Assembly: GCF_900105025.1 (NCBI RefSeq)
Contig: NZ_LT629759.1
Span: 1,426,001-1,490,000, forward strand
Length of the DNA: 64,000 nt
Origin: Parafannyhessea umbonata
GTDB lineage: Bacteria > Actinomycetota > Coriobacteriia > Coriobacteriales > Atopobiaceae
Direction of reading: 5' to 3'
A model generated the notes under the pieces. It ran no database searches. It saw only the letters and a list, made by a program, of their open reading frames with translations, and was not told the origin of the DNA. A program made the position numbers and the translations under genes. Of the stretch, positions 4,029 to 25,301 are shown in pieces. Positions within the stretch are counted from its first letter, which is position 1. Every line of letters begins with the position of its first letter.

Positions 4029-5153
4029 ATGGCATATCGCATCCTTACGCTCTCCCCCGGCTCGACCTCCACGAAGGTGGCGGTCTTCGAGGGCGAGAAG
4101 TGCCTCATGAGGGCGAACGTGACGCATCCGGCAGAGGAGCTCGCCCGCTTCGAGAGGGCCGTCGACCAGCTTGACTACCGCGTCCAGACCGTGCTCGACG
4201 AGCTTGCGAAGGCGCACTTCTCGCCCAGCGACATGGACGCGTTCAGCGGCTACTGCGGCGGCATGGGCCCCACGCGCGGCGGCATCTTCGCGATCGACCA
4301 GACCGTGTGCGACCACGTTCTGAACTGCGGCATGAACCACCCCGCCATCCTGGGCGCGCCCATCCTGTACAGGTTTGCGCAGGACACGGGCAAGCCGGCG
4401 TTTGCCGTGAACCAGCCGGACACCGACGAGCTGGACGACGTCGCGCGCATCACGGGATATCCCGGCGTGTATCGCAAGAGCCACGTGCACTGCCTGAACC
4501 AGAAAGAGTGCGCCATCCGCTTTGCCCAGAGCATAGGCAAGGCATACGACGAGGTGAACGTGATCGTGGCCCACGTGGGCGGCGGGCTTTCCGTCGCGGC
4601 GCACCGCCACGGCTGGATGGTCGACACGAACGACGTACTGGAGGGCTCCGGACCGTTTGCGCCGAACCGCTCCGGCGACGTGCCGCTGAAGCCCGTCGTG
4701 GCGCTCGTGGCGGACGGCGCCGAGTCCAAGGCCGAGGCCATGGCGCGCATTGGCAAGACCGGCGGACTGAAGGGGCTTCTTGGCACGGATGACGCCCGCG
4801 CGATCGACCAGATGATCGCGGGCGGCGACCCATGGGCGACCGTGGTGTACGACGCCATGGCCTACCAGACCGCAAAGGCCATTGGCGGGTTCGCGGCCGC
4901 GCTGGAGGGCGCGGTGGACGGCATCGTGCTCACGGGCGGCGTGTCGCACGACCCGATCTTCGTGAACGCCGTGCGCCGCCGCGTGCAGTGGATCGCGCCC
5001 GTCGCCGTGTACGCCGGAGACTTCGAGATGGAGGGCGCCGCCGCGGGTGCCGTCCGCGCGCTCGACGGCACCGAGTCCGTCATGACCTACACCGGCGAGC
5101 CGTCATGGGACGGCTTCAAGCTCTCCGGGGCACCGAGGGATGTGGAGGAGTAG
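4029..5153 (+). CDS. buk: Butyrate kinase-type acyl kinase
   Basis: A 374-residue member of the acetate and sugar kinases/Hsp70/actin superfamily, butyrate kinase branch. It makes carboxylate plus ATP from acyl phosphate and ADP. Visible features are the N-terminal phosphate loop (SPGSTSTK; N is usual at the first position), VAHVGGGLSV, and VLTGGVSHD near the adenosine site. The ribosome site GGGAGGAA precedes ATG 4029. The gene follows the phosphotransacylase closely and is followed without a gap by an MFS gene, so the three form an operon for making ATP from an acyl-CoA and moving a substrate or product. Branched-chain fatty acid kinase is the main alternative name. Confidence 0.88.
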   Translation: MAYRILTLSPGSTSTKVAVFEGEKCLMRANVTHPAEELARFERAVDQLDYRVQTVLDELAKAHFSPSDMDAFSGYCGGMGPTRGGIFAIDQTVCDHVLNCGMNHPAILGAPILYRFAQDTGKPAFAVNQPDTDELDDVARITGYPGVYRKSHVHCLNQKECAIRFAQSIGKAYDEVNVIVAHVGGGLSVAAHRHGWMVDTNDVLEGSGPFAPNRSGDVPLKPVVALVADGAESKAEAMARIGKTGGLKGLLGTDDARAIDQMIAGGDPWATVVYDAMAYQTAKAIGGFAAALEGAVDGIVLTGGVSHDPIFVNAVRRRVQWIAPVAVYAGDFEMEGAAAGAVRALDGTESVMTYTGEPSWDGFKLSGAPRDVEE

Positions 5154-6425
5154 ATGACGGAAACCGCCAAAGCACAAGGTGGCAAGTCCGGGGGCTTCCA
5201 CTACGCCTACCTTATCGTGCTGTCGTGCATCATGATCACGTGCCTGCCGTGCGCGCTCGCGCTCAGCTGCGCCGGCATCTTCTTCACCCCGGTGAGCGAG
5301 TACCTGGGAGTGGCTCGCGCCCAGTTCACCCTGTACTTCTCGATACTCAACATCGCGATGATGCTCACGCTGCCCGTCGCCGGCAAGCTCATGGGCAAGT
5401 CCGACCTGAGGGTCGTTCTTTCCGCGGGCGTAGCCCTCACGGGCGCAGGCCTTCTGCTTATGGGGCGCTGCAGCGCCCTGTGGCAGTTCTACCTGTGCGG
5501 CGCCGTCATGGGCGTCGGCGTGGCGCCGCTCATCTACCTGGCCGTGCCCACGCTCATCAACGCGTGGTGCGTAAAGCGCGTCGGCTTCTTCGTGGGGCTC
5601 TGCATGGCGTTCACCGGTATCGGCGGCGTCATCTTCAACCCGGTGGGCACCGCCCTCATCCAGTCCGGAGACGAGGGCTGGCGCCTGGCGTACACCGTCT
5701 TCGGCATCATCACGCTCGTGGGAACGCTGCCGTTCACGCTGTTCGTGGTGCGCTCCAAGCCCAAGGACAAGGGTCTGCTGCCCCTGGGCGCGGGCGAGGC
5801 GACCGACACGTCTAGGCCCGCGGCGGAGTCCGGTGGCGTGATCGCCGCGAAGGCCATGCACATGCCGGCGTTCTGGGCGCTCGTGGTGTTCTGCGGCATC
5901 ATCACCCTGAACCAGACCATCTACCAGTTCCTGCCCAGCTACGCCCTGTCCTTCTCGTCCAGCCTTCCCCAGGTCGCGGCCGCGTCCGGCGTCGTCGCGT
6001 CCGCCGCGATGGCCGGCCAGGCGATCGGCAAGGTCCTTCTGGGCATCGTGAACGACCGGTCGCTGCGCGCCGGCGTCTTCGTGGGCATGGGCTGCGGCGT
6101 TGCGGGCGTCCTCGTGATGTGGCTGCTGCCGTCCACGCTTGCGCTGCTGCTTGCGGGCGCGTTCCTGTTTGGCATCGTGTACGCCCAGACCGTGGTGCAG
6201 ACCCCGCTTCTGGTGCGCTACGCGTTTGGCTCGGCGGACTACCCCGCGATCTACTCGCGCGTTTCGATGGCAGGCTCGCTCATGAGCGCCGTGGCCGCGG
6301 TGTTCTGGAGCCTGGTGATCGACTCCGCGGGCGGGTTCCCCCTCATGTTCGTGCTCGGCATCGTCTGCATGGCGATCTGCCTGGCATCCGCGCTGTTTGC
6401 CATCGCGCACAAGGCGGAGGCATAG
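5154..6425 (+). CDS. MFS transporter, OFA-like
   Basis: A 423-residue polytopic membrane protein with about twelve hydrophobic segments and the MFS arrangement, including a central soluble loop after VVRSKPKDKG. It resembles oxalate/formate antiporter-like carriers common in Coriobacteriia. The ATG directly follows the kinase stop codon, and the ribosome site GGAGGAG lies in the end of that gene, so translation is coupled. Context suggests carboxylate uptake or product export. Substrate unknown. Confidence 0.8.
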   Translation: MTETAKAQGGKSGGFHYAYLIVLSCIMITCLPCALALSCAGIFFTPVSEYLGVARAQFTLYFSILNIAMMLTLPVAGKLMGKSDLRVVLSAGVALTGAGLLLMGRCSALWQFYLCGAVMGVGVAPLIYLAVPTLINAWCVKRVGFFVGLCMAFTGIGGVIFNPVGTALIQSGDEGWRLAYTVFGIITLVGTLPFTLFVVRSKPKDKGLLPLGAGEATDTSRPAAESGGVIAAKAMHMPAFWALVVFCGIITLNQTIYQFLPSYALSFSSSLPQVAAASGVVASAAMAGQAIGKVLLGIVNDRSLRAGVFVGMGCGVAGVLVMWLLPSTLALLLAGAFLFGIVYAQTVVQTPLLVRYAFGSADYPAIYSRVSMAGSLMSAVAAVFWSLVIDSAGGFPLMFVLGIVCMAICLASALFAIAHKAEA

Positions 6426-11830: not shown

Positions 11831-13195
11831 CTAATCGCGCGGGTGCTCGCGCAGCTGCTCGCGGGTGTGGCGAAAGCGCGGGCAGAACAGCCCCAGGTAC
11901 ATGAGGACGCGAAATCCCACCTGCATCTGGAACACGTCCTCCCCGCTCGACAGGTCGCAGCCCAGGATCTTGCGGATGGTGCCCAGGCGGTACAGCAGCG
12001 TGTTCTTGTGCAGGCTCAGCTGCGCGGAGGCGCGAGCGGTCGACTGGCCGTTCTGCAGGTAGCCAAAGAGCGTGTTCATGAGGTCGGAGTCGTGGATGCG
12101 GTCGTGCTCCATGAGGGCCACCAGCGTCGGCGGGCAGATGTCCAGCAGGTCGTCCGTCTGGTTCGTGCGCTCAAGCAGCTTCACGTAGCTCAGGTAGTCG
12201 TAGCGCATGACGCGTCCCACCTCGAGCGCGTTCGAGACCGTCTGCCCAAAGCGGATGGCGTCGTGCGCCTGCTCGTAGCCGCTGTGCACGCCCGTGAGCG
12301 ACTCGAACCGGTTCGATATGCCAAACAGGAGGTCGTTCAGGTCGCCCACGTCGCGCATGCGGCCAAGCTCGAACTCCGTCAGGTCCTGCCCCTCGTCCTT
12401 GCACACCAGCATGACCAGCTGGTTCTTGTGCAGCGCGTACAGTCCGTGCGTCAGGAGCGGCTGCAGCTGGCCCGCGACGTTCTGCATGTTTCCCACCTGC
12501 GCGAAGGGGTTCCTGGGCACGGCCACCACCACGCGCATGCGATCGGACCGCCTGAAGTTGATGGCGGCGGCGCGGCGCTCGAGCGAGGTGGCGTCCGGGT
12601 GGTCGTTCTCAAGAAGCGACGCCAGGAAGTACGACCCCATCTGGCCGCGCGTGCTCAGGTACACGGGGTTCTTCTGCAGCTCCTGCGCCACGATGCCAAC
12701 CAGCAGGTCAAAGCCGCGCTCGTCCTCGGGCGTGACGGTGCGCCCGCGCTCCACCAGCAGCACGTGCGCTATGCAGATGCCGTGCACCATGGCCGCGCCC
12801 ACCAGGGTGTTTGCCTGCATCCGGTCGTTGAAGTGCACGCATGGGCACACGCTCTTCGCAAGGTGCTCGTCCAACCCGCGCTCGTGGATGTAGGCGATGC
12901 CCTCCTCGCTCACGAAGCCGCTGCGCAGCTCGTCGCGCATCACGCGGGCGAACTCGGAGTCGTCGTCCGGCGCCACATCCATCTTGCGCGCCACGTAGCG
13001 ATAGTTCGCGTCGATCACGGCAACGGGGTTTCCCAGCACCCGCGCGGCCACGTCCACGATGTGCTGAAGTCCCATGTCCGAGAAGAGCGCGTTGATCATC
13101 TGCTTGCCGGCATCCTCCTGCCAGCACTCGTCTCCCGGTCGAGGGGCCTTGCGCTTCTCGCCCGCGTTGTCACATGCCGGCATGCGCTCCTCCAT
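11831..13195 (-). CDS. PucR-like transcriptional regulator
   Basis: A 454-residue protein ending in a PucR-type helix-turn-helix (ASAQLSLHKNTLLYRLGTIRKILG). The N-terminal half has a GAF-like look (AVIDANYRYVARKMDV) that may bind a ligand. GGAGGA precedes ATG 13195. It lies between an MFS gene and the zinc-ribbon flavoprotein, all on the minus strand, and is probably the local regulator. It resembles the regulator at 1269-2843 mainly in the DNA-binding end. Confidence 0.72.
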   Translation of the reverse strand: MEERMPACDNAGEKRKAPRPGDECWQEDAGKQMINALFSDMGLQHIVDVAARVLGNPVAVIDANYRYVARKMDVAPDDDSEFARVMRDELRSGFVSEEGIAYIHERGLDEHLAKSVCPCVHFNDRMQANTLVGAAMVHGICIAHVLLVERGRTVTPEDERGFDLLVGIVAQELQKNPVYLSTRGQMGSYFLASLLENDHPDATSLERRAAAINFRRSDRMRVVVAVPRNPFAQVGNMQNVAGQLQPLLTHGLYALHKNQLVMLVCKDEGQDLTEFELGRMRDVGDLNDLLFGISNRFESLTGVHSGYEQAHDAIRFGQTVSNALEVGRVMRYDYLSYVKLLERTNQTDDLLDICPPTLVALMEHDRIHDSDLMNTLFGYLQNGQSTARASAQLSLHKNTLLYRLGTIRKILGCDLSSGEDVFQMQVGFRVLMYLGLFCPRFRHTREQLREHPRD

Positions 13196-13223
13196 CCCCG
13201 TCCTCCGTTCGCGAACGTCCGCC

Positions 13224-13259
13224 GGCGGGAGGGTCGGGACATGCCCGCACCCTCCCGCC
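13224..13259 (-). terminator. Hairpin terminator after MFS gene
   Basis: Arms GGCGGGAGGGT and ACCCTCCCGCC with a 14-nt loop lie about 60 nt past the minus-strand MFS stop and before the regulator gene. Confidence 0.65.
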
Positions 13260-13321
13260 TAGCGTGAATTACAACAATCTATCATGCGCGATGGGCGCGC
13301 CGTGCCACATCGAGCGACTCG

Positions 13322-14527
13322 CTACTTTGCGGCAGCCTCGCGCGCGACTGCCTGCACGGCCTCCTCCGCCTCCTGGGCGGGCGTCAGCTTCGCATAATGA
13401 ATCATGCCAAACACCACCAGCACCACGATGATCGCGATGCCCAGGACGAACTTCTGGCCAATCTGCGCACCGAACGGTGCGGTGGCCGCCTCGAAGAACA
13501 GCGGCGACAGCGCCATGCCAAAGTTGGTTCCGGCCATGCCGATGGCAAGGTTGAAGGCGCGACCCTCGTTCGTGCTATTGCCGGCTGCAAAGTTGCCCTG
13601 CAGAGGCACATACGTCTCCTTGCCGAGCGAGGTGACGAAGCCGGCGGCGCACAGAACGACAAGCGACGGCGCCACGAGCGCGAGTGCGAGGCCCACGATC
13701 GTCACGCACCAAGCAAGCGGCATCGCGCGGTTCTTGAAACGCTTGAACAGCGGTCCCACTAGGAGTCCCGCGAAGATGCCCGCCACCGTCATGATGGTGG
13801 ACGCCATGGCGCTCTCGCCCGTTCCGCCAAAGCCGCGCTCGGCCACAATCAGGGACACGTTTGTCGAGAAGAGCTGGAAGCACAGCACGAATACGAAGCT
13901 GATTAGCGTGATGAGCGCGACTTCCTTGGGCATGTTCTTGAAGACGTTGCTCTTGCGCTTGGGCTCGAGGTGACCCATGGGGAGACAGATCGCCTCGATG
14001 ATGATGAACGGCAGCTCGGCGGCGTATGCGGCGTAGGCCATATACCACTCGCGTGCGCCGAGGATGCCGGAAAGCGTGGTCCAGAGGATGCCGCCCAGCG
14101 CGACGAACGTGGAGTACACGCCCATGATGCTACCGCGCTGCTGTCCCTCGAAGTAGTCCGCAATCAGGGCGTCGGTCCCGTTCTGGATGCCGCCGATGCC
14201 GATTCCGATGAACACGGAGGCCGTGAGCACCTGCCAGAGCTCCGCATGGAACGCCACGACGGAGAGGCCCGCGACCATGATCAGCACGTGGCACGCAAGC
14301 GCGGTGTGGCGCTTCTGCACGCGCGTCGCGAGCACGGACGAGACGAACATGGCCGAGAGCGCCATACACAGCGGGATGATGCCGATGCACATCTGGACCG
14401 CCGCGATGTTCGCGTCCGGAAAACTCTTCGCGATCGAAGACAAGATGGGAACGGGAACGAGCATCCCCATTATGCACATCGCGGCAGAATAGATGCCGAC
14501 GATGTACTTGACCTGCGTCTTATTCAT
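13322..14527 (-). CDS. MFS transporter
   Basis: A 401-residue carrier with about twelve hydrophobic segments. The loop after helix 2 (VLATRVQKRHT) and the basic central loop (EPKRKSNVFKNMPKE) fit the MFS fold. It is closer to sugar/drug-type MFS proteins than to the OFA-like carrier at 5154. AAAGG lies upstream of ATG 14527. An IS110-type element inserted about 80 nt upstream of the start and may have altered its promoter. Substrate unknown. Confidence 0.78.
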   Translation of the reverse strand: MNKTQVKYIVGIYSAAMCIMGMLVPVPILSSIAKSFPDANIAAVQMCIGIIPLCMALSAMFVSSVLATRVQKRHTALACHVLIMVAGLSVVAFHAELWQVLTASVFIGIGIGGIQNGTDALIADYFEGQQRGSIMGVYSTFVALGGILWTTLSGILGAREWYMAYAAYAAELPFIIIEAICLPMGHLEPKRKSNVFKNMPKEVALITLISFVFVLCFQLFSTNVSLIVAERGFGGTGESAMASTIMTVAGIFAGLLVGPLFKRFKNRAMPLAWCVTIVGLALALVAPSLVVLCAAGFVTSLGKETYVPLQGNFAAGNSTNEGRAFNLAIGMAGTNFGMALSPLFFEAATAPFGAQIGQKFVLGIAIIVVLVVFGMIHYAKLTPAQEAEEAVQAVAREAAAK

Positions 14528-19217: not shown

Positions 19218-20504
19218 TTACTCGTGCGTGCGCAGGATCTGGCAGCGGATGTTCTGGCCGCCGCCAAAGCCACGGAGGAACGTGGTCCTGGGGAGCTTGG
19301 GCATCTGGGTCGCGCCCGCCTCGCCGCGCATCTGCTTGACGGCCTCGTAGATGTCCGCGACGCCCGACGCGCCGTGGGCGTGGCCGAAGTTGCAGCGGCC
19401 GCCGTGGGTGTTGATGGGCTTGTCGCCGTCGAAACCGCAGCGTCCGTCGATCGCGTACTGCCAGGCCTCGCCGCGCGGGATGTAGCCGACCTCCTCGGCG
19501 CTGACGATGTCGCCAGCCAGGAAGAAGTCGTTCACGAACAGCAGGTCGAGCTCGTCGGGCTTCACGCCGGTGTACTCGTACACCTGCTTGGCGCCGTCCT
19601 TCGTGCCGTTGTACTCGTTGTCAGGGGTCGCACCCTCGTAAGCGGCGGCGCCGGTGCCGAGGACGTCGATGATCTTGTGGTCAAGACCGCGGGCGACCGC
19701 CATGTCCGTGGGCATCACGACGAGCGCGGCGGCCCCGTCGCACTTGGTCTCGAAGCCGGTCACACGCAGGTACTGGGTGACCTTGGGGTTGAACATAGAG
19801 GAGAGGAACTGGTCCGCGTTCTCCATGCCGTTCGCCTTCGCGGCGTCGTCGAAGTCGGACTCGTAGAACGCAAGCGGGTTGAGCACGGCGTTCCTGCGGA
19901 GGCTCTTGGACATGCCGTTGAGCGCGGCGTCGATCTGCTCGGCCGTGAGGTCGTACTCCCAGCGGTACTTGTTGATCCAGTTGTCGAAGCTGATGCCAAA
20001 GGCGGAGTCCAGGGGACGGCCATAGGCGCGGTCGTACACCATGGGGATGGAGGGGAGCATCTCCTCCAACGGGAAGTCGCGACGGTAGCAGCCGGGGGCT
20101 CCCACGACGGGCAGCGATGCCGCAAGGTCAACCGCACCGGACAGCACGATGTCGTACGTGCCGCAGGCCACCGCCTGGACGGCCTCCTGCAGGGCGACGT
20201 AGCCGGTACAGCACGCCTCGGAGTGGTGGACGGAGCCGATGCCACGGACGCCAAACCAATCGGCGACCTGCATGTTGGGCGTAAGGGAGTCGCCAATCAT
20301 GAACGGGTTCGCCGCGCCGTGGTAGAAGTACTGGATGTCGCGCGGCTGAAGGCCGGCGTCCTTGATGGCCTCGAGCGCCGCATAGCCAAAGGCGTCGCCC
20401 TCGCTCATGCCCTTCGTCTCGGGGTGATCCTCGAAGTTCTTGAACGGCGTGCAGCCCACACCGACGATGGAGACGCTGCGTGCCTGCTTGCCCAGCTTGA
20501 CCAT
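19218..20504 (-). CDS. Thiolase-family acyltransferase (SCP2/PhlC-like)
   Basis: A 428-residue thiolase-fold protein. The nucleophile is Cys98 in SEACCTGYVAL. The C-terminal histidine motif is NFGHAHGASG, after NTHGGRC. The last segment reads FGGGQNIRC rather than the C-x-GGG motif of biosynthetic thiolases, so the second catalytic cysteine seems absent, as in SCP2/PhlC-type members. AAAGGAC lies upstream of ATG 20504. With the DUF35 and carrier-protein genes downstream it forms a compact unit that probably cleaves or forms a carbon-carbon bond in a beta-keto acyl compound. Substrate unknown. Confidence 0.82.
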   Translation of the reverse strand: MVKLGKQARSVSIVGVGCTPFKNFEDHPETKGMSEGDAFGYAALEAIKDAGLQPRDIQYFYHGAANPFMIGDSLTPNMQVADWFGVRGIGSVHHSEACCTGYVALQEAVQAVACGTYDIVLSGAVDLAASLPVVGAPGCYRRDFPLEEMLPSIPMVYDRAYGRPLDSAFGISFDNWINKYRWEYDLTAEQIDAALNGMSKSLRRNAVLNPLAFYESDFDDAAKANGMENADQFLSSMFNPKVTQYLRVTGFETKCDGAAALVVMPTDMAVARGLDHKIIDVLGTGAAAYEGATPDNEYNGTKDGAKQVYEYTGVKPDELDLLFVNDFFLAGDIVSAEEVGYIPRGEAWQYAIDGRCGFDGDKPINTHGGRCNFGHAHGASGVADIYEAVKQMRGEAGATQMPKLPRTTFLRGFGGGQNIRCQILRTHE

Positions 20505-20823
20505 TAGCCCACGTCCTTTGCGCTTGCTGTCCTTCACTTGACAGCACGTATCGTACGGACGCGCGCCCCAGGGCTTAAGAACAACGGTGCAGCATGCGTT
20601 TCAGCTTGTGGGACAAATTGGCGGCATCTTGTATCTTTCAGCAGGTAAACACGTCGTTATTTCGACGCAATCACAAAGCTCAATATCAATTAACGCAGTT
20701 CCGAGCGGTAGGATATCGAAGGCGAACGGTATGGCGCAACACGACGGAGACTGACTGTGTCCCATCGAGCCACTGTGTTTCACCCTTGACTTGGCCACGC
20801 GCAACCGCCGCCGGAATACAGGT
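20505..20823. promoter_or_regulatory. 319-bp intergenic region upstream of the thiolase gene
   Basis: Between the TetR stop and the thiolase start. The composition is more AT-rich than in the flanking genes, as in a promoter. A near-palindrome CGTATCGTACG (about 20547) could be a TetR-type operator for the thiolase unit. I see no gene here. Confidence 0.35.
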
Positions 20824-21420
20824 CTAGTCCCACCCCTGCGGCGCCTTCGGAGTCTGCCGGACGCTCTCCTCGGAAAGGAAGAATGGCGCGTAGTAGAGCC
20901 TGTTCAGAACGGCCGCAATCTTCTGCGGCTCGATCTCGGGGTGCACTTCGAGCCAGTACTGGACGAGGTTGTTGTGTCCCGCGATCACGAAGGACAGGTA
21001 CAGGTCGCGCGTCACGGGGTCGCCACCAAGCGAGGCAAGCCTGTCGCGAAAGTAGTCGTGCATGAAGATGGTCGCCTTGTGCACAAACGAGGGGTCGCCA
21101 TGGGGCCCGTTCAGCACGACGATCTTGTCGCGGTGTCCCTGCAGAAGCTCCATGCGGCTCACCATGGAGACCGTGGGGTCAAGCTCCGAGATTCCAAACC
21201 GTGCCTTGAGCGCCATGTTGTTGATGCGCCGCATGTTCTGCAGAAGCTCGCTCTCGAAACGCTTCACGACGTCGTCGACCGAGTCGAAGTGCCTGTAGAA
21301 CGTCGACCGCGAGACCTTCGCGAGCTTGATCACGTCGGCCACCCGGATGTCGGGAATGTCAGTCGTCTCCATCAGCTTGAAGACCGCTGTCTCAATCTTG
21401 TCGTCGATGTCGTCTGGCAT
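20824..21420 (-). CDS. TetR/AcrR-family regulator
   Basis: A 198-residue protein with an N-terminal TetR helix-turn-helix (RVADVIKLAKVSRSTFYRHFDSVDDVVKRF) and a helical C-terminal half for ligand binding and dimerisation. AAAGGAG precedes ATG 21420, which is preferred over an ATG 18 nt upstream. It is codirectional with, and 320 nt upstream of, the thiolase-DUF35-ACP genes and probably regulates them. The ligand may be an acyl-CoA. Confidence 0.8.
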   Translation of the reverse strand: MPDDIDDKIETAVFKLMETTDIPDIRVADVIKLAKVSRSTFYRHFDSVDDVVKRFESELLQNMRRINNMALKARFGISELDPTVSMVSRMELLQGHRDKIVVLNGPHGDPSFVHKATIFMHDYFRDRLASLGGDPVTRDLYLSFVIAGHNNLVQYWLEVHPEIEPQKIAAVLNRLYYAPFFLSEESVRQTPKAPQGWD

Positions 21421-21502
21421 GCCCACTCCTTTCAACATGCCCTAGGATATTGCAACATCGCACGCCCCTCCGCAAGCTTCCGCCCAAACGATTCCCCGCG
21501 CG

Positions 21503-21536
21503 CCGCAGGCGCACGCGCACCGCAGGCGCACGCGCA
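21503..21536. repeat. Tandem 17-bp duplication
   Basis: Two adjacent perfect copies of CCGCAGGCGCACGCGCA lie in the TetR upstream region, probably a replication-slippage product. Confidence 0.8.
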
Positions 21537-21538
21537 AG

Positions 21539-21584
21539 AAAGGCCCGCCGCGGTCGATTCCGCGACAGGCCTCGTGCATGTCAA
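21539..21584 (-). terminator. Repeat copy 1 of a terminator hairpin
   Basis: A 46-bp segment with a GGCCCGCCGCGG-type stem that matches 22299-22344 at 44 of 46 bases, in the same orientation. It lies directly after the DUF2442 stop (minus strand). Confidence 0.7.
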
Positions 21585-21586
21585 AC

Positions 21587-21898
21587 CTAGTTAGCCGCTG
21601 CAAGAACATCGTAGGTGTTATATGTATCCCCATGTTCATATACATACTCGGGGGCGACATCGACATTCCTATCGTCCCACGTGGGTACCCCATGAAACAG
21701 CTTGACCCCGCGGAACACTTCTGGATCATCCAGAACGTCAAACACCGGCCCCTGCAGAGTCGTTGTGTCAAACAGCTTCCTTTCCCCATTATCGAATGTG
21801 ACCAACAGCATTCGTCCTACGAGTGGCTTAACGTCAATGATCCTAGTCTCGTGTGCGCCGGGGTTTCCTGCATAGCATATTCCGTCTATCTCGTACAT
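21587..21898 (-). CDS. DUF2442 protein
   Basis: A 103-residue protein of the DUF2442 type: RIIDVKPLVGRMLLVTFDNGERKLFD, then a central PVFDVLDDPEVFRGV and a C-terminal TWDDRNVDVAPEYVYE. DUF2442 genes usually pair with DUF4160 genes, and a broken DUF4160 frame lies just upstream here. Pairs of this kind have been proposed as toxin-antitoxin-like or mobile modules, without firm biochemistry. Base composition is lower in GC than that of its neighbours. Confidence 0.78.
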   Translation of the reverse strand: MYEIDGICYAGNPGAHETRIIDVKPLVGRMLLVTFDNGERKLFDTTTLQGPVFDVLDDPEVFRGVKLFHGVPTWDDRNVDVAPEYVYEHGDTYNTYDVLAAAN

Positions 21899-21906
21899 GA
21901 ATCCCC

Positions 21907-22206
21907 CTATCTCAATGGCTCAATCTTTGAGAAGTGCTCACCCCTCACTGCCTTATTCCATGCCGCATAAACCTCCTCTTCATGCAGAGCAAGCCATCCA
22001 ATCACAATTTTCAGTTGCCGTTTTGGTAACGATCCGGCGAGCAGCTCGCCATCAATCCCGACTGACGCCTAATACTCTCCGTAATAAACGTGCACGTGTG
22101 GCTTGTTATGTTGCTGCGTGTCTTTGAACAGTAGATAGATAACGATACCCGCAAATCTTGTGAGCTCAGGCGTTCCTTTTGCCCCTCCAACTCGAATTGT
22201 CGAGCC
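21907..22206 (-). pseudogene. Broken DUF4160 gene
   Basis: The frame reads LTRFAGIVIYLLFKD, then KPHVHVYYGEY, an in-frame TAG at 22069-22071, then ASVGIDGELLAGSLPKRQL and VYAAWNKAVRGEHFSKIEPL. This is the full DUF4160 pattern with a nonsense codon (probably from GAG) in the middle. Upstream in frame there is a TGA at 22207-22209 and no ATG/GTG/TTG before the conserved part, so the start is lost as well. It is the usual partner of the intact DUF2442 gene 8 nt downstream. Confidence 0.8.
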
Positions 22207-22298
22207 TCAAACCATAAATAGTTAGGTCAAGTATACCCAGCCCATCGCACGCCGATGAATTGTCTCTGCGCAAGGACGCTCTGTTAGTCTTTCACGGC

Positions 22299-22344
22299 AA
22301 AGGCCCGCCGCGGTCGATTCCGCGACGGGCCCCGTGCATGTCAA
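22299..22344 (-). terminator. Repeat copy 2 of a terminator hairpin, after PEP carboxylase
   Basis: Same 46-bp sequence as 21539-21584, with stem GGCCCG-CCGCGG / CCGCG-CGGGCC. It is in the right place to terminate the PEP carboxylase gene, which ends at 22376. The nearby 22207-22298 holds no gene that I can see. Confidence 0.75.
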
Positions 22345-22375
22345 GCTGTAGTGCGCCGCAGTGTGGGCGCACGCA

Positions 22376-25249
22376 TCACCCCGTGTTCTGCAGGCCGGCG
22401 GAGACTCCGGACACGGTGCAGAGGATGAGGTAGATCAGGCGCTCCTTCTCGTCCGCCGTAAGCACCTCGCCACGTAGCCTCATGCGCGCAAGCGACATGA
22501 CCTGCGCGATGGACAGCGCGTTCACGTACGGCAGGCGCATGCGGATGACGGGGCCAAGCACGCGGCGGTGCTGCAGCGGCCAGTCGTCACCCACGATGGC
22601 AAGCACCCACTTGCGCGTCAGGCGCATCTCGTCCAGGACCTTCTGGCTCAGGTCGTCGCGATCGCCCAGCGACAGGTACAGCTTGCCGATGCGCTCGTCC
22701 GTCTTGGAAAGCGACATCTCGATGTTGTCGATGAACGTCGAGAAGAGCGGCCATTCGCGGTAGGCACTCTGCAGTCGCTCCAGGTCGTTGAACTTCTCGC
22801 ACGCCGTGCCCAGGCCGTACCACGCGGCCAGGTTGATGCGCGCCTGCGACCACGAGAAGATCCACGGGATCGTACGCAGGTCGTCCAGGGACTTCGCGCC
22901 CAGTCCGCGCTTGGCGGGGCGGCTGCCGATGGGCATGAGGCCAACCTCGGTGAGCGGCGTGACGGTGCTGAACCACTCCGCGAAGCCGTCCGTGTTCAGC
23001 AGGTCGAGGTAGCGGTCGCGGCTCGCCTTGCTCAGCGCGTCCGAGACGTCCTCGTACTCGTTCGTCGACTCCGTGTTGAGGAGCTCGGTCGAAGGCGCGC
23101 TCTGCATGAGCGTCGCGCCGGCGACCTCCTCGATGTGGCGACGGGCCAACGTCTTGTTGCCGTAGCGCGCGAATATGACCTCGCCCTGCTCGGTGAGCTT
23201 GAAGCGGCAGTTCACGGAGCCCTTCGGCTGCGCCAGCACCGCGCGGTTTGCGGGGCCGCCGCCACGGCCGACGGCGCCGCCACGGCCGTGCATCAGCGTG
23301 AGGTCGATGTCATTCTCGTTCGCCCACTTAGCGATGGCCGCCTGGGCCTTGTGCAGCACGAACGTCGCCGTGGTCGGACCCTCGTCCTTCGAGGAGTCGG
23401 AGTAGCCGAGCATGACCTCCATCTTGCGGCCGGTCTGGGACAGGCGGCGCTGGACGTCGGGCAGCTCCAGCATCTGGTTTAGGGTGTCGACGGCGTTCTC
23501 GAGGTCCTCCACCTGCTCGAACAGGGGAATGACGTCGAGCACGGGCACGTCCTCCTCGTGCGCGAACGCGAGGCGCGCGAGCTCGTAGACGTCTGCAACG
23601 TTCTGGGCGCTCTTCGTGAAGCTGATGATGTAGCGGCGTGCGGCCTTCACGCCGTTGCGGCGCTGGATCGACCCGATGGCGCGGAAGGTGTCCAGCACCT
23701 CCTTCGTCATGGGCGCAAGCTCGCCGTTCTCGCCCCAGCGACCGTGCTCGCGGATGTCTGCGAGCGCGCGGCTGTGCACGAGCGAGTGCTGGCGGAACTC
23801 CATCTCCACCAGGTGGAAGCCGAAGGTCTCCGCCTGCCAGATGACCTTCTGGACCGGGCCGTACGCCGTGCGGACGGCGCCGGCCTTCGCGAGGGACGAC
23901 TGCACCACCCTCAGGTCGCGGATGTAGTCCTCCGCCGTCTGGTACATGATGTCCGCCGTGCGCTGGATGGTGGCGTCCAGACGGTTGGATATCACGATCA
24001 TGGCGGCGCGGTGCAGCTCGGACGCAGACACGCGCAGCGCGGAGGCGGAAAGCGCCTCGCTCATCTCGACCTGGTGGCTCCACAGGTTCATGAGCTCCTT
24101 GGAGGGCTTCGTCGTGCGCGCGTCGAGCGTGAGGTTGCGGCCGACCCACGCGGTGCGGTCACGCAGCGCCTCCAGCACGTGGACGCGGTACTTCTCGGAC
24201 ACCTCGCGGCTGACCTTCGCGGTGACGTTGGGGTTGCCGTCGCGATCGGAGCCAATCCAGCTGCCGGGGTGGAAGAACGCGGGGCAGACGGGCGGCACGG
24301 TGCCGGCCTTGTCGCCCAGCTCCCAATCGTCGAAGCGACGGTACACGTCCGGCACGGTGTCGAACAGCGTGCTGTCGAAGATCGAGATGACCGTGTCGGC
24401 CTCCTGGACCGGCGTCGGCTTCTTGATGGCGATGGGACTCGTACGCAGCAGGGCCTCTATCTCCTGCAGCATGCGGCGCTCGTTCTCCGCGCGCTCCGTC
24501 GGCCCCAGGTACGGGCGCTGCTCAAGCAGATCCGCGATGCGGCGGATCTTGCCCTCGGTCGCCTTGCGGCGTGCCTCGGTGGGGTGCGCGGTGAACACGG
24601 GGTGGAACTCCAGGCGCTCGAGCAGCGCGTGCGCCTTCGCGCGGCCGCACTCGTCCACGAGCTTGTCGTAGGCCACGGTGATCTCGTTCACGGGATCCTC
24701 GCGCGACTGCGTGTCGACGCTCGCCTCGCGGGCGCGCAGCGCGTGCACGCGGTAGTTCTCCTCGCAGATGTTTGCAAGGTGGAAGTAGGCGGTCAGAGCG
24801 CGCACGATGAGGGTCTCGTCCTCGAGGGACATCTCGTCGATGGTGCTCACGCAGTCGTCGAACGCGTCACGTCCCTCCTGGTCGTCGTCGCCCGCGGTCT
24901 CGCTGCGCGTCGCGACCAGCGAGTCGTGCAGGATGTGGTCGAACTCGTCGCGCAGGCGCGGGTCGTACTCCTTCAGCACCTTGCGCACCAGACGCAGGAA
25001 CAGCGTCATGTTCGCCCTGATGGAATCGGGGACGTCCACGCCGGTGAGCATCGTTGCCGCCTGGGCGAGCTCGGCCGCCTCCTCCGCCGTCGGGTAGATG
25101 GTGGGGCGATCCTCGCGCTTGAAGTTAAGAAGCTCCTCGATCGTCTTGGGGTTCTTCTGGGCAAAGTCCTCGGCCACGCTCTTGAGGCCGATGCCCCTCT
25201 CCCCCGCGCAGCCGGTCGCCTGGCCGGCCGCACCCGTAACTTCTGACAC
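22376..25249 (-). CDS. ppc: Phosphoenolpyruvate carboxylase
   Basis: A 957-residue cytoplasmic enzyme that adds bicarbonate to PEP to give oxaloacetate, replenishing the C4 pool. All diagnostic motifs are present: FTAHPTEARR with the catalytic His, GSDRDGNPNVT, LGYSDSSKDEG, MHGRGGAVGRGGGP, QPKGSV, and the C-terminal LQNTG. The length is normal. I chose the GTG at 25249 because GAGGAGGA lies just upstream; a TTG 36 nt further out has no such site. It is transcribed divergently from a flippase gene. Confidence 0.95.
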   Translation of the reverse strand: MSEVTGAAGQATGCAGERGIGLKSVAEDFAQKNPKTIEELLNFKREDRPTIYPTAEEAAELAQAATMLTGVDVPDSIRANMTLFLRLVRKVLKEYDPRLRDEFDHILHDSLVATRSETAGDDDQEGRDAFDDCVSTIDEMSLEDETLIVRALTAYFHLANICEENYRVHALRAREASVDTQSREDPVNEITVAYDKLVDECGRAKAHALLERLEFHPVFTAHPTEARRKATEGKIRRIADLLEQRPYLGPTERAENERRMLQEIEALLRTSPIAIKKPTPVQEADTVISIFDSTLFDTVPDVYRRFDDWELGDKAGTVPPVCPAFFHPGSWIGSDRDGNPNVTAKVSREVSEKYRVHVLEALRDRTAWVGRNLTLDARTTKPSKELMNLWSHQVEMSEALSASALRVSASELHRAAMIVISNRLDATIQRTADIMYQTAEDYIRDLRVVQSSLAKAGAVRTAYGPVQKVIWQAETFGFHLVEMEFRQHSLVHSRALADIREHGRWGENGELAPMTKEVLDTFRAIGSIQRRNGVKAARRYIISFTKSAQNVADVYELARLAFAHEEDVPVLDVIPLFEQVEDLENAVDTLNQMLELPDVQRRLSQTGRKMEVMLGYSDSSKDEGPTTATFVLHKAQAAIAKWANENDIDLTLMHGRGGAVGRGGGPANRAVLAQPKGSVNCRFKLTEQGEVIFARYGNKTLARRHIEEVAGATLMQSAPSTELLNTESTNEYEDVSDALSKASRDRYLDLLNTDGFAEWFSTVTPLTEVGLMPIGSRPAKRGLGAKSLDDLRTIPWIFSWSQARINLAAWYGLGTACEKFNDLERLQSAYREWPLFSTFIDNIEMSLSKTDERIGKLYLSLGDRDDLSQKVLDEMRLTRKWVLAIVGDDWPLQHRRVLGPVIRMRLPYVNALSIAQVMSLARMRLRGEVLTADEKERLIYLILCTVSGVSAGLQNTG

Positions 25250-25301
25250 TGCGTTCCTCCTCTGCCGTCTGACGATGGGCGCCAACGCATTAGCTCGCAG
25301 G

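Follow-up and report, generated by a model that had tools for sequence, protein, structure and literature searches.

A toxin-antitoxin operon behind ppc in Parafannyhessea umbonata, probably inserted with a long duplication of its target

A broken dhiTA operon lies between two copies of a hairpin

The window, the whole stretch of 64,000 nucleotides of Parafannyhessea umbonata DNA that was analysed, carries on its minus strand ppc, one copy of a 46-bp hairpin stretch, a broken DUF4160 gene, a DUF2442 gene, a second copy of the hairpin stretch and tetR, which is the conserved neighbour across the site from ppc (Table 1). The two hairpin copies are direct repeats whose starts are 760 bp apart, and they are identical at 44 of 46 positions. 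The original prediction, which was built on this repeat, proves exact in its positions, its shared direction and its identity. The stop codon of the DUF2442 gene lies 2 bp from the distal hairpin copy.

Table 1. Features of the locus downstream of ppc (positions within the window).
Feature	Position	Strand	Remarks
TetR-type regulator gene (tetR)	20824..21438	-	PF14278, 29.1 bits (cut-off 26.1); 89.5% identical DNA in G001
ppc-distal hairpin copy	21539..21584	-	left flank native, retains part of the G001 T-run
714-bp insert	21585..22298	-	G+C about 0.50; missing at the same site in G001 and G002
dhiA (DUF2442) antitoxin gene	21587..21898	-	intact, 103 aa; PF10387
dhiT (DUF4160) toxin pseudogene	21907..22173	-	expected start codon missing; interrupted by one in-frame stop
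ppc-proximal hairpin copy	22299..22344	-	right flank native (aligns to G001); then TTTGCC on the gene strand
ppc, phosphoenolpyruvate carboxylase	22376..25285	-	PF00311, 712.8 bits; the cassette sits after it

The outer flanks of both hairpin copies are native and the inner flanks are foreign. The lower G+C that had been reported for the DUF2442 gene is confirmed, at 0.51 for this gene and 0.49 for positions 21899-22298 compared to 0.65 for the window. We saw no terminal inverted repeats in the insert (end-against-end score 6, shuffle mean 6.1), and the window's list of open reading frames holds none of more than 130 aa that overlaps it. A search of positions 20500-23000 with Rfam returned no family at the gathering score. 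The DNA that separates tetR from the distal hairpin copy includes a GC-rich short tandem repeat (21496-21535), and similar stretches occur elsewhere in this genome and in its relative G001.

Both gene assignments hold up. The DUF2442 protein scores 29.3 bits against PF10387, above the Pfam cut-off of 23.9, and its residues 1-95 are 55% identical to an antitoxin encoded in another genome of the sample, G029. The DUF4160 gene is recognizable from its read-through translation, with X at the stop (PF13711, 76.5 bits), and it is indeed broken, with one TAG in frame and without a start codon at the position that its relatives use. The pair can therefore yield antitoxin but no toxin.

DUF4160 and DUF2442 correspond to the DhiT/DhiA pair of Dickeya dadantii, in which the toxin gene comes first and in which overproduction of the toxin inhibited growth, whereas co-expression of both genes did not (PMC8198452, in excerpt). 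A pair of this type in Thermus increases plasmid persistence and has been called a ‘persistence-enhancing module’; plasmids without the second open reading frame gave zero transformants, whereas transformants were obtained without the first (PMC12724237, in excerpt). The pair in the window shares with these systems the DhiTA order, with the DUF4160 gene upstream of the DUF2442 gene on the same strand, and the close spacing. It differs in that its toxin is broken, and in its flanking duplication, which the excerpts of the two papers (PMC8198452, PMC12724237) do not mention. The intact toxin reading frame that belongs to a DhiTA pair is missing here, which makes this a decayed member. These protein matches identify the 714 bp as a toxin-antitoxin operon of the DhiT/DhiA (DUF4160/DUF2442) type, in which the antitoxin gene is intact and the toxin gene is not.

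Intact copies of dhiT exist elsewhere, for example in G029 (locus L003). PADLOC made no call for DhiA or a DhiT relative, and among 72,556 plasmid records DUF4160 relatives were found in 24. In the family to which the genome of locus L116 (described below) belongs, 5 of 88 other DUF4160 loci (L184, L230, L239, L243 and L255) have an in-frame stop, so broken toxins recur or some of these stops are sequencing errors.

The hairpin stretch is confined to this site

At up to three mismatches, the hairpin pattern matches twice in the window, compared to a shuffle mean of 0.02, and nowhere else in the whole genome. The search of other genomes that the original prediction had proposed gave three matches in 140 genomes of the family, all at this site, in the window's genome and in G001; the pattern was not found at this threshold in the other 138. 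With two copies in this genome and three matches in the 140, we reject a dispersed hairpin family at this site. When flanks separated by a 600-bp gap were scored against each other, the site gave 40 and 38 (in two overlapping windows) and the next best of 626 windows gave 15. As none of the 140 genomes other than these two yielded the hairpin, it is most probable that the second copy arose at the site itself.

We infer that the hairpin stretch is a terminator from its pairing, which comprises 12-14 continuous pairs. The terminator scan listed neither copy, and the T-run after both copies is weak.

The site is empty in both congeners

The genus comparison comprises three genomes, namely that of the window (G000), G001 and G002. 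Neither G001 nor G002 has a DUF2442 match, and in both of them tetR still adjoins ppc. In G001 we found tetR, a single hairpin and ppc without the cassette, which is the relative that the original prediction had said to look for; G002 is cassette-free as well, with one hairpin of different sequence. Two terminators without the cassette, which had been named as evidence against an insertion boundary, were seen in neither congener.

Alignment to G001 locates the junctions. Window positions 22299-22900 and 20821-21587 align to positions 12021-12622 and 12574-13322 of G001 contig C25, with an overlap of 49 bp. The alignment in G001 runs on through the single hairpin, and nothing in G001 aligns between the window's two copies. 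Because both flanks overlap in one G001 hairpin, the duplicated DNA is target DNA that was present once. Each window copy differs from the G001 hairpin at 2 of 46 positions, one of them private to that copy and the other shared by both.

The identity of the 3' part of ppc is 94.8% between G000 and G001, 91.9% between G000 and G002 and 91.7% between G001 and G002, and the corresponding values for tetR are 89.5%, 83.8% and 82.7%. These identities make G001 the sister genome and place G002 as the outgroup. With the outgroup empty, a single insertion on the branch leading to the window's genome is enough. Two routes had been offered for the origin of the repeat. The first, an insertion at ppc that duplicated the hairpin, is supported by the empty sites in G001 and G002. 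The second, recombination between existing terminator copies, is disfavoured, because the hairpin is single-copy in G001 and, at up to three mismatches, unfound in 138 of the 140 genomes, so that a second copy to act as partner is not known.

A probable insertion with duplication of the ppc hairpin

We consider it likely that the dhiTA operon entered downstream of ppc by insertion with long target duplication, and that the hairpin was duplicated around it in the process. This reading starts from the sister's single-copy empty site, the native outer flanks, the foreign composition of the insert and its lack of transposon ends. A bare operon of about 0.7 kb, consisting of the two genes and their upstream region, would have entered the intergenic site after ppc in the same orientation as that gene, leaving 46 bp of target sequence on either side of itself. 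The duplication could have arisen if the foreign fragment was joined where a break with long staggered ends had occurred, or where the hairpin had stalled a fork, and the target was filled in or copied twice in the process; the sequence would fit break-and-fill and template switching alike. Decay of the toxin gene may have followed later and left the orphan antitoxin.

The insertion may have had a side effect on ppc. Read on the gene strand, the bases after the hairpin are TTTTCTTTG in G001, TTTGCC at the ppc-proximal copy and TTTCTTG at the distal copy, so that the insertion would have cut the ppc hairpin off from the greater part of its T-run. Since the ppc-proximal hairpin has lost this run, we predict that ppc transcripts may now read into the cassette and end at the second copy.

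A second dhiTA insertion at an unrelated target

At loci L116 (a Veillonellaceae bacterium) and L113 (Selenomonas sp.), dhiTA (PF10387) lies directly behind a deaminase gene (PF00383), and the pair is flanked by two copies of the last 44 bp of that gene, which are alike at 38 of 44 positions in L116. Genome G192 has one 44-bp copy followed by the same downstream DNA, and the cassette is absent at that site, although the genome has one DUF4160 match at another place. Its single copy matches the upstream copy of L116 at 41 of 44 positions and the downstream copy at 35 of 44. At six further loci from this search (L136-L139, L150 and L153), the same two neighbours are 84-234 bp apart, too close to hold the cassette.

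As read from these alignments, the same gene pair is inserted at two unrelated targets in two bacterial groups, with 46 and 44 bp duplicated. In both insertions dhiTA has the orientation of the upstream gene. The 46-bp and 44-bp repeats are mutually unrelated, which argues against a recombination site carried by the cassette. As the repeat derives from the target, the cassette elsewhere is expected to carry a repeat of its own target. Hence the earlier expectation that an inserted cassette would bring the same repeats along does not apply literally: L116 and L113 do have a repeat of their own target, but most other dhiTA loci tested have none that is detectable. These two are the only dhiTA insertions for which we have a matching empty site.

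Other routes to the same arrangement

The empty sites could instead reflect loss, if a cassette between two hairpins was ancestral and was removed from G001 and G002 through recombination between the copies. Direct repeats of 46 bp can recombine, and a clean loss between them would give exactly the state of G001. However, two losses would be required, as G002, the outgroup, also lacks the cassette and carries a hairpin of another sequence, and insert-like DNA turned up, at any position, in just 2 of 139 further genomes of the family. We therefore regard an ancestral cassette as improbable.

Nor do we favour a two-step history, to which we give, if anything, less weight, in which the hairpin was duplicated first by tandem duplication or slippage and dhiTA came between the copies later by ordinary recombination. 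Hairpins are prone to slippage, and neither copy looks older than the other, as each has one private change relative to G001. On the other hand, a cassette-free relative with two hairpins was not seen, both congeners having one, and dhiTA has the same architecture at an unrelated coding 3' end in L116.

We rate as least probable that a recombinase supplied in trans integrated the pair site-specifically, as an integron cassette or a non-autonomous integrative element with the 46 bp as att site. The gene-hairpin-gene-hairpin order does resemble a cassette array, the doubled end of the deaminase gene in L116 is reminiscent of att sites at the ends of genes, and a Vibrio cholerae metagenome-assembled genome is listed with a DhiTA pair (PMC12654330, the excerpt of which does not state an integron location). 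On the other side, the hairpin is reused nowhere in the genome at up to three mismatches, the repeats of the two dhiTA insertions are unrelated, no reading frame of more than 130 aa overlaps the insert and, by eye, the repeat ends misfit the integron core site.

Relation to known insertions

Insertion with long target duplication, our preferred explanation for the ppc site, has precedents. It was reportedly described by Nobusato et al. in 2000. The excerpts of later papers derive it from a comparison of two Helicobacter pylori genomes, often with restriction-modification genes (PMC1643837), treat it for restriction-modification systems (PMC3874152, PMC2654758, PMC3031569), and describe the duplications as long and variable, of the order of 100 bp (PMC3874152, PMC3031569). 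The resemblance is close. In both cases one genome carries a small addiction-type module that a related genome lacks, long direct target duplications form its flanks, and the insert gives no hint of a recombinase; in the window, as in that class of insertion, the target is directly duplicated around the insert and is single-copy in the relative. The differences are that here the module is a toxin-antitoxin pair in two other bacterial groups instead of a restriction-modification system in Helicobacter pylori, and that the duplications of 46 and 44 bp, although long, are shorter than the order of 100 bp given in the excerpt of PMC3874152.

A transposon with target site duplication would likewise be flanked by direct target repeats. 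The 714-bp insert, however, has neither the terminal inverted repeats nor the transposase of a transposon, with no open reading frame above 130 aa, and its duplication is far longer. Transposon target duplications usually span a few bases.

To our knowledge, the spread of small recombinase-free addiction modules between bacterial genomes is poorly explained. The two independent dhiTA insertions would extend to a toxin-antitoxin pair the mechanism proposed for restriction-modification systems. What is new here is the toxin-antitoxin pair in place of a restriction-modification system; the kind of insertion itself is known. We found no report of long target duplication around a toxin-antitoxin pair in the literature searched, a scope outside which most subscription papers fell. 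For the window's genome, insertion would account both for the doubled hairpin behind ppc and for the orphan antitoxin gene, and the combination of a direct repeat with an empty site is a simple signature that can be searched for across small addiction modules.

More speculatively, bare toxin-antitoxin operons may be minimal mobile units without a recombinase of their own that recurrently enter gene ends and terminators and duplicate about 45 bp of the target, with dhiTA as the clearest example and HicA-type pairs perhaps doing likewise. We put this forward as a tentative and rather doubtful generalization. If it were true, the duplication would leave the ends of both neighbours intact, so that arrival would be nearly cost-free.

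Flanking repeats around other toxin-antitoxin pairs

We looked for flanking repeats in two samples of dhiTA loci, which have four loci in common. The first came from a GTDB scan with a DhiT alignment, of which the best 80 of 400 relatives were taken; 64 of these 80 loci gave testable pairs and no pair was called in 16. A repeat score of at least 17 was reached by 5 of the 64 pairs compared to 6 of 2105 control windows, these six belonging to three loci, and a looser version of the test gave 5 of 78 loci compared to 4 of 272 controls. The second sample comprised 151 genomes of the family to which the genome of L116 belongs, with 90 loci, 88 of them testable. Here a flanking repeat was found in 4 of 88, compared to 1 of 504 control windows, or 4 of 561 with a slightly different core length. 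The idea that dhiTA is always flanked by repeats is thus ruled out, as most pairs in both samples have no detectable repeat.

Fisher tests on these counts assume independent windows, and the windows are not independent; L110 and L111 represent one arrangement in a dispersed repeat and L113 and L116 one insertion. Once L110 and L111 (dispersed hairpin family) and L039 (contig end) are set aside, the five positives of the first sample leave L113 and L116. The hairpin that flanks dhiTA in L110 and L111 has 73-74 matches per genome, some of them counted on both strands. In these Selenomonas ruminantium loci the repeated hairpin is long, some 80-110 bp, and lies at about 4795-4905 and 5585-5695; by eye, the stems of the copies beside dhiTA differ and pairing seems to be kept. 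At L039, in G029, a 139-bp repeat surrounds dhiTA, but we rejected this candidate: one copy runs up to the end of its contig, and adjoining DNA is found again close to the end of a different contig. No match joining the two L039 flanks was found in 16 genomes of its genus. The repeat at L051 is of 16 bp only. Candidate flanking repeats were also noted at L186, L227, L180 and L275, the last in an apparent split gene.

HicA pairs from the genomes of the second sample gave 7 of 69 compared to 4 of 126 control windows (70 loci, with L205 left out), in a test that kept the better of two core positions per pair and so favours HicA. Flanking repeats may thus be a trait that is not specific to dhiTA. 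Taken together, repeats are commoner around dhiTA and HicA pairs than around arbitrary stretches, in counts that are small and drawn from non-independent windows.

Some individual loci have related arrangements. At L299, a HicA-type pair lies between copies of 95-96 bp (1311-1406 and 2319-2413) of the apparent start of a neighbouring gene, a candidate for a similar insertion. In G007, a 73-bp direct repeat (97% identity; 522-594 and 1349-1421) lies beside the DUF2442 gene of locus L007; it resembles a tRNA 3' end by eye, although ARAGORN found no tRNA gene at this locus. At L012 in the same genome, a terminator-like hairpin occurs three times after a DUF2442 gene, at 1777-1819, 2674-2716 and 2788-2830 (100, 86 and 74%).
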